DNA of 58,780 nt from contig JAHEDG010000002.1 in the NCBI GenBank assembly GCA_024641335.1, positions 1 to 58,780 on the forward strand, read 5' to 3'. The stretch is from Candidatus Zixiibacteriota bacterium. Its GTDB lineage: Bacteria > Zixibacteria > MSB-5A5 > UBA10806. The first letter of the stretch is position 1. Every line of letters begins with the position of its first letter. Below the pieces are notes generated by a model. That model was not told the DNA's origin, made no database searches, and was given only the letters and a program-made list of their open reading frames with translations. A program made the translations under genes and the position numbers. Shown here in pieces: positions 52,237-58,780 of the stretch.

Positions 52237-52485
52237 TTGGGCGAAATTGTGCGAGCCTTTAAATCATTCTCCACCGGAGAGATAAATAAACATATCGGAG
52301 TATCCGGGCAATCATTCTGGCAGCGCAATTATTATGAGTATATAATCCGAAACGACAACGATCTTTTCAGGTCGCGAAAATACATCCGGGAGAACCCCTT
52401 GAAATGGAAAATCGACAGGGAAAATCGGGTAAACTTATTAATCAAGGCGCACAAAAACGGGGATGTGTGTGTATCAGGATATTGA
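52237..52485 (+). pseudogene. RAYT (REP-associated tyrosine transposase) C-terminal remnant
   Basis: An 82-residue frame beginning GEIVRAFKSFSTGEIN and containing FWQRNYYEYIIRN and RKYIRENPLKW, the conserved C-terminal part of IS200/IS605-like RAYT transposases. The N-terminal catalytic HUH domain is absent, so the element is dead. It is preceded directly by the palindrome at 52211-52231, which marks the truncation end. The frame runs past the family's usual end into the following gene. Inserted between lexA and the DUF6504-like gene. Confidence 0.7.
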
Positions 52486-53996: not shown

Positions 53997-55214
53997 ATGG
54001 GAAATCATGATGTGATGGATAAGACCGATAAGTTGATCGAACGCTGGCAATTTTCCTCCAGCGCCAAAAATTTAAAACCGTCGTTTATCAGAACCATGCT
54101 CAAAGGTTCTTCTCAGCCGGGAGTAATCAATTTCGCCGGCGGTCTTCCCGCGCCCGAGCTTTTCCCGGTCGAGGATATAAAAAAATCCTGTGTCTCGGTT
54201 TTGGATAAGTATGGGCGGGAGTCATTGCAATACTCTTTATCCATCGGAGTTCCCCTGTTAAGAGAATTGATCTCCGAGCGAGTCTCATCGGACAGGCATA
54301 GTTTCTCGCCTGAGGAAATCCAGATAACGGGCGGTTCCCAGCAGGCTTTGGATATTATCGGTCGCATCCTCATAGAACGCGGAGCGGTGGTCCTGACAGA
54401 GGAACCGACCTATCTCGGCGCTATTCAGGCCTTTTCGTTTTATCACGCCCGTTTCGCGTCGGTTAAAACCGATCATAACGGCATGCTGCCCGATGATCTG
54501 GAAGCCAAGATCAAAAAATACAACCCTTCATTCATTTATGTTGTCCCCGATTTCCAGAACCCAGCCGGATATACCTGGTCGGAGGAGCGTCGCGAGGCAC
54601 TGGTCAATCTGGCCGTGAAATACGATATCCCGGTAGTCGATGACAATCCTTATAGAGAACTGCGTTTCAGCGGGCAGGAGCCGACCTCGTTACTCGCCAT
54701 GGGGGGACAGCATGTCATTCAGCTGGGGACATTTTCCAAGCTGATATCTCCGGGTTTGCGCATCGGCTGGATAGTCGGAGATCCCGAGATTATCGCTCTT
54801 TGCGAGCGGATGAAGCAGGCGGCCGATCTTCATACCAATACATTTACCCAATATGTAATTCATGAGTTCGCCAAAGACGGCGGTCTTGACCGTCACATCG
54901 CGAAAATTAGAAAAGCGTACAGTATCCGCCGCGATACCATGATTAAGGCATTAAGGGATAATTTCGGCGCTGACGCCACCTGGACGGAACCAGAGGGAGG
55001 TTTATTCCTTTGGATAAAGCTGCCCGACGGCACATCGGCCAACGACATGATTCAGGCGGCCCTGGAAGCCAGGGTAGCTTATGTTCCAGGCATGTACTTC
55101 TTCAGCGAAAGACCTGACGATTCCACATTGAGACTGAATTTCTGCAACGCTACCGAGGAGAATATTGTCGAGGGGGTCAAGAGACTGGCCGGTGTTTTCA
55201 AAAACGCCAAATAA
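53997..55214 (+). CDS. PLP-dependent aminotransferase, class I/II (LysN/2-aminoadipate type)
   Basis: A 405-residue fold-type I aminotransferase without the MocR DNA-binding domain. Signatures: INFAGGLPAPELFP, QYSLSIGVPLLRE, ITGGSQQALDIIG, YVVPDFQNPAGYTWS, and the PLP lysine in GTFSKLISPGLRIGW. This subgroup includes 2-aminoadipate transaminases and broad aromatic/branched-chain aminotransferases. Adjacency to dapF and argS suggests amino-acid biosynthesis, perhaps a diaminopimelate or lysine-related step, but the substrate cannot be read from sequence. Starts at 53997 and 54012 are both in frame. Confidence 0.85.
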   Translation: MGNHDVMDKTDKLIERWQFSSSAKNLKPSFIRTMLKGSSQPGVINFAGGLPAPELFPVEDIKKSCVSVLDKYGRESLQYSLSIGVPLLRELISERVSSDRHSFSPEEIQITGGSQQALDIIGRILIERGAVVLTEEPTYLGAIQAFSFYHARFASVKTDHNGMLPDDLEAKIKKYNPSFIYVVPDFQNPAGYTWSEERREALVNLAVKYDIPVVDDNPYRELRFSGQEPTSLLAMGGQHVIQLGTFSKLISPGLRIGWIVGDPEIIALCERMKQAADLHTNTFTQYVIHEFAKDGGLDRHIAKIRKAYSIRRDTMIKALRDNFGADATWTEPEGGLFLWIKLPDGTSANDMIQAALEARVAYVPGMYFFSERPDDSTLRLNFCNATEENIVEGVKRLAGVFKNAK

Positions 55215-55230
55215 AATTCTCGCCTGATCT

Positions 55231-56073
55231 ATGAAAATACCGTTTATAAAAATCCAGACCATCGGGAACGACTACGTCTATGTCGATGGAAAATCGATAT
55301 CCCGCCTCGGCAGGAGCCTGCCGGCCCTGGCCAGGGATATTTCCAACCGGCATAGCGGCGTGGGCTCCGACGGTTTGATTGTTGTCGACGATACCGGAAA
55401 AAATTCGGTCAGGATCAGGATCTACAACAGCGATGGTTCCGCCGCCGAGCTTTGCGGTAACGGGCTTCGGGGAACCGTTCTTTTTACAAGAGAGTTCTAT
55501 GGAAAACGCGGCTCGAAATTCGTCATCGCTACCCAATGGAACGAATATGACACAGAGATACTCAATATCAGGGGCAATAGGGCGATGGTAAAAAGCTCAT
55601 TAGGCTCCCCCGATTTCGAGGCGTCTTCGATAGGATGCCGCGGGGCTATTAGGAACTGCCTGGGGATGAAAATAAAAATGGGGGGAAAGACGAGGGAAAT
55701 TTACGCGCTGGCCATGCCCAATCCGCATGCCGTGATTTTTGTTGACAATTTCGATTTCCCGTGGCAAAAAGAGGGAGCGGATCTGGAACACAACCGCTTA
55801 TTCAAAAACAGAGTCAATGTTATGTTTGCCAGGGTGGAGTCATCGAAAAAGATAAAAATAATGCCCTGGGAACGGGGTTCCGGGGCGACACTATCATGCG
55901 GTTCCGGGGCGGCCGCGGTCACCGTAATTTCAGGATTATTAGGTTGCACCAGGGGGATGGTCAAGGCGGAAATGCCAGGCGGGAGTTTGAAAACGTTCTG
56001 GGATATAGAAAAAAATAACGTCATTCAGGAAGGTCCGGCCCAAATCGCTTTTACAGGATCGTATATAATTTGA
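55231..56073 (+). CDS. dapF: Diaminopimelate epimerase DapF
   Basis: A 280-residue PLP-independent epimerase that converts LL- to meso-diaminopimelate. The two active-site cysteines are in AELCGNGLRG (near residue 74) and SCGSGAAAV (near residue 220). The catalytic His is in NPHAV and the catalytic Glu in WERGSGATLSCG. The usual GxGET reads GSGAT here, a mild change. Meso-diaminopimelate feeds peptidoglycan and lysine. The stop overlaps the argS start (TTGA). Confidence 0.94.
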   Translation: MKIPFIKIQTIGNDYVYVDGKSISRLGRSLPALARDISNRHSGVGSDGLIVVDDTGKNSVRIRIYNSDGSAAELCGNGLRGTVLFTREFYGKRGSKFVIATQWNEYDTEILNIRGNRAMVKSSLGSPDFEASSIGCRGAIRNCLGMKIKMGGKTREIYALAMPNPHAVIFVDNFDFPWQKEGADLEHNRLFKNRVNVMFARVESSKKIKIMPWERGSGATLSCGSGAAAVTVISGLLGCTRGMVKAEMPGGSLKTFWDIEKNNVIQEGPAQIAFTGSYII

Positions 56074-57782
56074 GAAAATACAAAAGCCACATAGCTCGGA
56101 AACTATCCTCTCTTACCGGTATGGATGAATCCGACATCGGATCGCTTATCGAAACGCCTCCGTCAGATGATCTGGGGGATCTGGCCTTTCCCTGCTTCTC
56201 ACTGGCGAAATCATTGAAAAAAGCCCCCGCCGCGATTGCCGGCGAGCTTAAAGGCAGGATCGAGCCAGATGAGTTCCTTGAGCGTATCGAAACCAAGGGT
56301 CCTTACATCAATTTCTTTATTGATAAAAAACGCCTTATCGCATCCGTAATAGCCGAAATCGCCGGGGCCGAAGAGAATTACGGGGGCTCCAACGAAGGTT
56401 CCGGGAAAACCATTGTCATAGAGTATTCTTCCCCCAATATCGCCAAACCGTTCGGCATAGGGCATCTCCGATCCACTGTAATCGGGGCGGCGTTAAAGAG
56501 AATATACTCTCATTTGGGGTATTCAGTTCAAGGAATCAACCATTTGGGCGATTGGGGAACTCAGTTTGGCAAGCTGATATACGCGTTCAAGCAATGGGGC
56601 GACGAGGCCAGACTCAAGGAGAATCCGATTGAGCATCTTTACGAAATCTATGTGAAAATTCATCAGTGGGAAGAGGAAGATCCCGGAATTGCCGACGCTA
56701 CCAGAGAAGAATTTAAAAAGTTGGAAAACGGCGATGAGGAAAACACGGCCTTGTGGGAACGGTTTTCCGATTTAAGCCGGGTTGAGTTCGAAAAAATCTA
56801 TAAAATGCTTGGTGTGGAGTTTGACAGCTCTCCCGGAGAATCGTTTTATGTAGACAAGATGCCCGCGGTCGAGAAGTCGCTTATGGATCTTTCGCTTTTG
56901 GTCAAAAGCAAGGACGCGACCGTAGTTGATCTGGAGAAATACGGTATGCCGCCCGCGCTGATCAGGAAAAGCGATGACACCAGCCTCTACGCCACCAGAG
57001 ACCTGGCCGCGGCTATCTACAGAAAAAACGAATTCGATTTTCATAAAATGATCTACGTAGTGGGAGTGGCTCAGACTCTTTACTTCAACCAGCTTTTCAA
57101 GGTTCTCGAGCTTATGGGCAACAAATGGGTGGCCGATTGTCATCATGCCAGCTTCGGCTGGATTAAGCTGGGGGATGAGATGATGTCCACTCGCAAAGGG
57201 AATATCGTATTTCTCGACGACGTCATTGCCAAAACAATCGAAAAGACCAAAGCCATTATCGAGGAGAACTCGCCCGGTCTGCCCGAACCGGAAAAGGTGG
57301 CCTTCGAGGTCGGAGTGGGGGCGGTGATATTCGCCGATCTCGCTTATCGCAGAGATACGGACATCTCGTTTGATTGGGCGAAGATGCTCGATTTCAGAGG
57401 CTACTCCGGGCCTTACGTGCAGTATACCCATGCCCGTATATCCAGCGTCTTGAGAAAATACGGCAAGGGTGTTCCGGCTAATTGCGATTCAGATCTTTTG
57501 AAACTGCCGGAGGAATTCGCCATGGCTAAAATTCTCTCCCGTTATTCCGATATAATTGATAAAGCCGCGAGAGAATTCGAACCGTTTCATATCTCGTCGT
57601 ACTTGCTTGAACTTTGCGGAGTTTTTAATACCTACTATCAAAAATACAAATCCGCGGAGGATCGCATTCTATCAACTGATCCCGGCGCCACCGACGCTCG
57701 AATTTCGCTGATTAACGCGGCCGGAATAGTTCTTCGTTCCGGATTGAGATTACTGGGGATTTCAGCGCCGGAGATGATGTGA
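56070..57782 (+). CDS. argS: Arginyl-tRNA synthetase
   Basis: A 570-residue class I synthetase. N-terminal additional domain (about 1-110), then the HIGH region NIAKPFGIGHLRST, where the first His is Gly, and NHLGDWGTQFGKLI. The KMSKS-equivalent is MSTRKGNIVFLDD, typical of ArgRS variants without a canonical KMSK. The anticodon-binding DALR domain at the end contains YVQYTHARISSVLRK and the final LGISAPEMM. Start codon is TTG 56070 overlapping the dapF stop. Length fits the family. Confidence 0.95.
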   Translation: MRKYKSHIARKLSSLTGMDESDIGSLIETPPSDDLGDLAFPCFSLAKSLKKAPAAIAGELKGRIEPDEFLERIETKGPYINFFIDKKRLIASVIAEIAGAEENYGGSNEGSGKTIVIEYSSPNIAKPFGIGHLRSTVIGAALKRIYSHLGYSVQGINHLGDWGTQFGKLIYAFKQWGDEARLKENPIEHLYEIYVKIHQWEEEDPGIADATREEFKKLENGDEENTALWERFSDLSRVEFEKIYKMLGVEFDSSPGESFYVDKMPAVEKSLMDLSLLVKSKDATVVDLEKYGMPPALIRKSDDTSLYATRDLAAAIYRKNEFDFHKMIYVVGVAQTLYFNQLFKVLELMGNKWVADCHHASFGWIKLGDEMMSTRKGNIVFLDDVIAKTIEKTKAIIEENSPGLPEPEKVAFEVGVGAVIFADLAYRRDTDISFDWAKMLDFRGYSGPYVQYTHARISSVLRKYGKGVPANCDSDLLKLPEEFAMAKILSRYSDIIDKAAREFEPFHISSYLLELCGVFNTYYQKYKSAEDRILSTDPGATDARISLINAAGIVLRSGLRLLGISAPEMM

Positions 57783-57788
57783 TATTCA

Positions 57789-57817
57789 TTGAAAACAAAT
57801 GAGTTTTAACCTACAAT
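57789..57817 (+). promoter_or_regulatory. Sigma-70-type promoter for the aroA-like gene
   Basis: TTGAAA (57789-57794), a 17-base spacer and TACAAT (57812-57817). The expected start point near 57824 gives a leader of about 22 bases before ATG 57846, with only a weak SD (aaggg near 57820). Confidence 0.55.
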
Positions 57818-57845: not shown

Positions 57846-58780
57846 ATGGACAAAGTAATTAATCCTGTAAAAGGTCTAAAGGCCAAAATAAAGCTTCCCG
57901 GCGATGCGGCGATTTCGCATCGGGCAGCCCTGTTGGCGGCACTATGCCAGGGGCCGGTGGAAATTAAAAATTACTCCCCGGGCGATGAATGTAAGACCAC
58001 CCTGAACTGCCTGCGGCAATTGGGTGTTGAAATCGAGGAAAATGAAGATCTTCTGGTTATTCATGGAAAAGGAGCCGCCGGTTTAAGCAAACCGGAGGAA
58101 CCGCTGCATGTAGGAGGTTCCGTAGCCACGGCCAGAATGATCTCTGGGATCTTGTCGGCCCTCGATTTCGAGACGGTGTTGGATTGCGAGAATTCTATTT
58201 GCAATCTGCCCATGCGACGGGTTATCGAGCCGTTGGAGCTGATGGGCGCCGAGATAACATCCAACAGTAACAGAATGCCGATGACTGTAAAAGGCGGACA
58301 TCTCACAGGTATCCGTTACGCTATGCCGGTTTCCACGGCGCAGGTCAAGGCTATGCTGCTTATGGCCGGCTTCCTGGCCGAAGGAGATACCGAGATAATC
58401 GAACGCATTCCCAGCCGCGATCATTTTGAGAGGCTTCTGACCTATTTCGGAATCAAGATGAAGAAAAGCCGGGTGGAGCCCAAACCGTTAACGGAAGATC
58501 CCCTGATCAGGCGGTTTAAAAAAGAGACCGGAATAGTATCGCCCGACCTGAAAGGGGATATGATTGCCATTAAGGGCGGCCAGAAGCTGGTTCAAAAGCC
58601 CGTAACAATCCCCGGGGATTTATCATCAGCCGCCTATTTTCTTATTGCCGGTCTTCTGACCAAAAACTCGGTTGTCAGAGTCGAGGATGTCAGCCTTAAT
58701 CCATCGAGAATGGGATTTATCGAAGTTCTAAAAAAGATGAAGGCCCCCATTACTGTCGAGCAAAAAGGCGAATACGGATT
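57846..58780 (+). CDS. aroA: AroA-like EPSP synthase with altered active-site motifs (3' end beyond window)
   Basis: The first 311 residues of an enolpyruvyl transferase-fold protein, open to the window end. Homology to 3-phosphoshikimate 1-carboxyvinyltransferase is clear throughout (VKGLKAKIKLPGD, RRVIEPLELMGA, STAQVKAMLLMAGFLAEG, SRDHFERLL, TIPGDLSSAAYFL, LNPSRMGF). Key motifs are changed: PGDKSISHR reads PGDAAISHR (catalytic Lys is Ala21), GNSGTTxR reads GGSVATAR (90-97), and the (A/L)KRPM basic residues read CNLPM (119-123). A roughly 20-residue insert lies near 212-235. It is either a diverged paralogue with another role or a diverged functional enzyme. Confidence 0.85.
   Translation, partial: MDKVINPVKGLKAKIKLPGDAAISHRAALLAALCQGPVEIKNYSPGDECKTTLNCLRQLGVEIEENEDLLVIHGKGAAGLSKPEEPLHVGGSVATARMISGILSALDFETVLDCENSICNLPMRRVIEPLELMGAEITSNSNRMPMTVKGGHLTGIRYAMPVSTAQVKAMLLMAGFLAEGDTEIIERIPSRDHFERLLTYFGIKMKKSRVEPKPLTEDPLIRRFKKETGIVSPDLKGDMIAIKGGQKLVQKPVTIPGDLSSAAYFLIAGLLTKNSVVRVEDVSLNPSRMGFIEVLKKMKAPITVEQKGEYG

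Follow-up and report, generated by a model that had tools for sequence, protein, structure and literature searches.

The analysed window comprises 58,780 nucleotides and corresponds to positions 1-58780 of contig C19 in a Candidatus Zixiibacteriota assembly of 2.86 Mb and 98 contigs. Its 3' end carries a row of forward-strand genes: a PLP aminotransferase (class I/II, with MocR-like proteins as the nearest NCBIfam models; 53997-55214), dapF (55231-56073), argS (56070-57782) and, after a spacing of 63 bp, the 5' part of a gene encoding a homologue of AroA (EPSP synthase), located at 57846-58780 and matched by PF00275 over both of its halves. The eroded AroA homologues encoded at the argS locus are designated here AroA* (gene aroA*). 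The last base of the window adjoins a 10-N scaffold gap inside aroA* (C19:58781-58790), beyond which the gene runs on to C19:59192. The reading frame is open across the gap to the stop codon (448 codons, the gap counted as it stands). Alignment with relatives indicated that ∼9 residues are missing at this point, and the true gap is therefore longer than 10 bases. Further upstream, between lexA and dinB, inspection by eye revealed a short ORF (52237-52485) resembling a fragment of a REP-associated (Y1-type) transposase.

An earlier note on this DNA had assigned aroA* its own promoter. The promoter-like match in the argS-aroA* gap (57789-57817, forward strand) is a 10-of-12 match that does not exceed chance level (shuffles give 1.0) and is not conserved in relatives. 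No terminator was found in the 63-bp gap.

Translation of 57846-58778 gave D20-A21-A22, G90-G91-S92-V93-A94-T95 and N120-L121-P122-M123, exactly as the earlier note had read them. Using E. coli AroA as the numbering ruler, with the S3P and PEP contact positions other than Asp313, Glu341 and Lys22 presumed from its structures, the A21-A22 codons (57906-57911) stand in place of the catalytic K22-S23, GGSVAT (58113-58130) replaces GNSGTT (N94G, G96V), and L121 of the N120-L121 pair (58203-58208) replaces the PEP-binding R124. The last change had been described as the loss of a basic pair preceding Pro-Met; only the second residue of this pair is universally conserved, and it is this residue that is lost. 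Alignment with canonical AroA proteins additionally revealed E48 (57987-57989) in place of D49. The Ser-Thr-Ala-Gln loop (58332-58343), previously listed among the retained signatures, proved to be altered, as the canonical loop is A-S-A-Q (S169 changed to T, Q171 kept). Past position 58780, where the earlier note had suggested looking for the KET(D/N)R motif, the KExDR site of the protein reads N-Q-K-V-D-R versus V-K-E-(S/T)-D-R in EPSP synthases, and both K340 and E341 are lost. The C-terminal half keeps D313, R344 and GDHR.

The significance of these changes was assessed against a canonical set of 89 proteins (73 AroA of other phyla plus 16 encoded in shikimate operons of Zixibacteria), in which K22, S23, N94, G96, R124, K340 and E341 are 99-100% conserved. 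The window protein differs from this set at K22, S23, D49, N94, G96, G117, D118, R124, S169, G284, K340 and E341. Among the conserved columns, 8 of the 15 belonging to the active site are altered, compared with 4 of 49 elsewhere (Fisher p = 4e-4); the losses thus cluster at the active site.

The same pattern was found throughout family f1, to which the window belongs. K22, R124, K340 and E341 are gone; position 22 is occupied by A, N, N, S and G in the five genomes, and the KExDR site reads QKVDR or QKTDR in all five. Since the losses are common to five genomes, they do not represent sequencing errors, and an artefact at 57906-57911, which had been raised as a concern, is ruled out by the missing Lys in each of them. 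The cleft residues R27, Q171, R344 and mostly D313 are retained in f1; the general base Asp313 is kept in the window protein and is Asn in two relatives. Two changes extend beyond the family: the D49 position is E in 13/13 AroA* proteins from four families and D in all canonical proteins, while Gly96 is absent from 38/38 AroA* and present in 88/88 canonical proteins.

No second AroA is encoded in the genome of the window; the sole other PF00275 protein, on contig C48, was taken as MurA from its sequence. A search covering AroB, AroE, AroK, AroC and the chorismate-using PF00425 enzymes found none of them in this genome; neither the canonical aroA nor, within this set, the remaining shikimate genes that the earlier note had proposed to look for were recovered. 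AroB, AroE, AroC and PF00425 were absent from 9/9 genomes of the order (families f1 and f2), two of these being single contigs, and the order yielded one weak match to shikimate kinase, in genome G002 (MEWP01000042.1; 25 bits, E 3e-5). The same searches gave matches in 11-14 of 14 control genomes. With the searched pathway genes missing, auxotrophy for aromatic amino acids is predicted for this organism.

These data bear on whether AroA* could still function as an EPSP synthase that tolerates its substitutions and is supplied by shikimate uptake or by an unrecognized upstream route. In favour of this, the genome encodes no other AroA, and the orthologue in G001 (Candidatus Zixiibacteriota bin CP070742.1) exceeds the NCBIfam threshold for the aroA equivalog. 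However, K22 and E341, which both have catalytic roles in EPSP synthase, as does Asp313 (PMC12256929), are missing in all five f1 genomes, and neither the shikimate kinase acting upstream nor the chorismate synthase or any chorismate user acting downstream was found. We regard this explanation as highly improbable. Taken together, sequence and genome content argue strongly that AroA* has no EPSP synthase activity, in line with the earlier view of the protein as something other than a normal EPSP synthase, probably a pseudoenzyme or a protein with a new role.

To determine the origin of the gene, its surroundings were compared across Zixibacteria, where nearly all available genomes are metagenome bins. 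In each of two sets of loci with available upstream DNA, aroA* lies directly 3' of argS in 19/19 cases. This adjacency spans nine families (f1, f2, f4, f5, f6, f7, f12, f15 and f18); one of the 38 loci (L194) contains only the first part of aroA*. Two further loci (L092, L093), in which aroA* is at the contig edge, lack argS. The usual row consists of the PLP aminotransferase gene, dapF, in some cases an MFS gene, argS and aroA*, followed by genes for YraN, Gate-domain proteins or a MATE transporter; the MATE transporter gene is almost always next after aroA* in f6, f7, f12 and f18 (L183-L201, L087-L093). In other phyla, argS occurs anywhere near a canonical aroA in 1 of 73 stretches, and there at a distance of kilobases.

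Family f16 carries an intact shikimate operon in the same place, with the order aminotransferase-dapF-MFS-argS-aroA-aroE-aroK-aroB-aroQ (identified by Pfam matches). In f9, a DAHP synthase gene is located between argS and aroA at one locus (L205), and a prephenate dehydrogenase gene plus another gene at a second (L206); the layout in f17 resembles that of L206. The Pfam identification of these intervening genes covers L205:3904-4929 and L206:3212-4054. Given this intact operon at the same place in other Zixibacteria, aroA* is what is left, at its original position, of an ancestral argS-aroA-aroE-aroK-aroB-aroQ operon. The earlier interpretation of the gene as a paralogue is excluded, because the genome contains a single AroA and because AroA* and the canonical Zixibacteria protein are positional orthologues.

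Phylogenetic analysis placed the 13 AroA* proteins of f1, f2, f4 and f5 in one clade (support 99/96); its sister group is the canonical Zixibacteria AroA of the argS locus, and the two together form a clade supported at 94/92. The final tree excludes families f6, f7, f12, f15 and f18 because of their long branches, and orthology in these families relies on synteny and on an insert described below. A third group, comprising short AroA proteins of Zixibacteria, formed its own clade (98/92). Chorismate-making genomes that have AroA* (G026, G037, G106 and others) encode such a separate short AroA, which, where its surroundings could be read, sits in an unlinked operon, typically aroA-aroE-aroC-aroK-aroB-aroQ. 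Second, unlinked shikimate operons of this kind were observed in several families (L212, L213, L214, L202) and may reflect horizontal re-acquisition. AroC is missing in 20 of the 38 sampled genomes, 16 of which nevertheless have AroA*. In two genomes with AroA* and without AroC (G028 and G034), AroB is present; both assemblies are fragmented, so the AroC gap may be due to incompleteness.

The insert, previously noted as unusual near residues 212-235, is real; it is not peculiar to the window protein. This Zixibacteria-specific segment of ∼25 residues (residues ∼208-237; 58467-58556, forward strand), with a conserved Asp218 and basic residues, was present in 53/53 argS-locus AroA proteins, canonical and eroded, and in 0/80 others (0/7 short Zixibacteria AroA and 0/73 other AroA). 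In a few insert-less proteins the loop at this position exceeds the usual length by as many as 15 residues, yet it stays below the length of all insert-bearing loops. Asp218 was found in 50 of the 53 insert-bearing proteins. In an AlphaFold model (pLDDT 92) of the orthologue from G001, which adopts the EPSP-synthase fold, the insert forms a short helix carried by a loop; no other long segment has low confidence, and the insert is probably mobile.

The persistence of the insert was examined in f18, the most decayed family, in which nearly all active-site residues of AroA* are lost. Compared with the canonical proteins of f9, f16 and f17, the f18 proteins showed an identity of 0.07 at the active site (0.96 among the canonical proteins), 0.26 over the remaining protein (canonical proteins: 0.50) and 0.43 in the core of the insert, close to the 0.46 observed among the canonical proteins themselves. 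In the same test, a C-terminal stretch (∼372-405, G094 numbering) was conserved to an equal degree. Other AroA proteins lack the insert, so EPSP synthase activity in general does not require it, and it outlasts that activity; its most likely role is therefore in a second function that predates the catalytic loss. The insert marks the lineage and offers the best lead to what the protein has been retained for.

Selection on the gene was estimated from one measurable f1 pair, as saturation at synonymous sites precluded the estimate for the other pairs. For G001 and G003 (CP070813.1), dN/dS was 0.077 (NG86) and 0.090 (YN00), i.e., ∼0.08. Mean identity within f1 was 73% for AroA* versus 66% for ArgS. 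The AroA*/ArgS distance ratio was 0.80-0.91 in f1, f2 and f5, similar to 0.81-1.01 for the canonical proteins of f9, f16 and f17, and the reading frame is intact in full-length copies. AroA* is thus under strong purifying selection in the lineage of the window, where the loss of catalytic residues was not accompanied by a general relaxation. Elsewhere, in f6, f12 and f18, the ratio reached 1.6-2.4, and there the losses came with faster change.

We therefore consider it very unlikely that AroA* is a decaying relic, kept for lack of time or because its deletion would harm argS expression. The gene is indeed the leftover of a deleted operon, and it evolves fast in some families and is seemingly missing from others, but the low dN/dS, the in-frame full-length copies, a divergence below that of ArgS in f1, f2 and f5, the retention across nine families and the selectively preserved insert all argue against passive decay. 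The families seemingly without the gene are f10, f13, f14 and f19: in class-wide searches (132 genomes, the same as those covered at phylum level), the AroA* profile gave MurA-level matches or none, and AroC was absent among the matches listed. These lineages have apparently lost AroA* completely, which would make the protein dispensable in some lineages.

The remaining families form a graded series. In f2 (L078-L081) the AroA* proteins retain K22, K340, E341, R386 and, in 3/4 cases, R124, while no pathway genes are present; their changes are few (G96 to A or S, D49E, S169T/N, A170S). The G96A exchange is known from an active, glyphosate-insensitive mutant of E. coli AroA (PDB 1mi4); on that basis the f2 proteins could be active, a point that also favours a working EPSP synthase, and to judge from their sequences they may represent a natural intermediate. 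In f4 and f5 K22 is replaced by R. Across all AroA* proteins, the active-site columns share no common residue, while the structural residues R350, D382 and G383 (window numbering) persist.

Such a distribution has consequences for the idea that AroA* is still an enzyme, performing carboxyvinyl transfer or another reaction on a different substrate in the same cleft, so that the changed residues would reflect new chemistry. The retained fold and f1 cleft residues are compatible with this, as is the nearly complete catalytic set of f2 in the absence of a pathway. However, no residues conserved specifically in AroA* as a new active site were found beyond single columns, the variable occupants of position 22 in f1 form no new constellation, and in the same family the general acid/base E341, K22 and the PEP-binding R124 are all gone. 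This explanation seems unlikely to us.

We consider it reasonably probable that AroA* is a pseudo-EPSP synthase, a shikimate-operon remnant kept for a non-catalytic role that is exerted partly via the insert and predates the catalytic loss. According to this model, the ancestor of Zixibacteria would have had a shikimate operon directly behind argS; in the lineage of the window, the other pathway genes would have been deleted and the active site of AroA would have decayed. The AroA of the argS locus would already have held a second, non-catalytic role, carried at least partly by the insert, and would for this reason have been retained in place. That the protein was kept and conserved like a working enzyme suggests that another job was gained before the first was lost. 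The insert and the synteny give moderate support to a non-catalytic role. The second role would probably involve the proteins encoded alongside AroA in this row, ArgS foremost, as hinted by the constant adjacency; this adjacency may, though, be merely inherited operon order, and an involvement of ArgS or translation is proposed only tentatively. A broader version, which we put forward as a rather doubtful one, holds that the Zixibacteria EPSP synthase was dual-function, its insert-borne role being tied to arginyl-tRNA synthetase or translation and outliving the shikimate pathway in several families; the phylum would then present a series that starts with a bifunctional enzyme, passes through partly eroded forms and ends in a pure pseudoenzyme.

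The glyphosate target EPSP synthase is a textbook example of a metabolic enzyme with one purpose. AroA* shares with it (EC 2.5.1.19, PF00275, TIGR01356) the fold, many structural glycines and, apart from the insert, the length; the closest structure to the G001 model is Coxiella AroA (37% identical, TM 0.90). It differs by the lost K22, N94, G96, R124, K340 and E341, by the insert, and by its location in an argS operon with no pathway around it. The canonical argS-locus AroA of f3, f8, f9, f11, f16 and f17, its sister clade, has the insert in common with AroA* and occupies the same locus in f3, f9, f16 and f17, but keeps all active-site residues and resides in a shikimate operon in f9, f16 and f17. 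MurA (UDP-GlcNAc carboxyvinyltransferase) belongs to the same fold superfamily; the G001 orthologue reached 66.6 bits against the MurA equivalog, far below its cut-off of 392.7. This orthologue (L102:5001-6371) clears the NCBIfam aroA equivalog cut-off (306 versus 287.25 bits), and since it does so without the catalytic residues, annotation pipelines would assign an EPSP synthase to a pathway-less organism.

Like other pseudoenzymes derived from metabolic enzymes, AroA* combines lost catalytic motifs with a conserved fold and purifying selection. No pseudoenzyme derived from EPSP synthase was found in the literature searched, subscription papers lying outside its scope, and nothing related by title joined Zixibacteria and the shikimate pathway. 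Within one phylum and at one locus, the intact enzyme, forms changed at little more than G96, K22R forms and fully eroded forms occur as natural intermediates, and this series makes it testable whether a hidden second function rescues a protein after the loss of its pathway.
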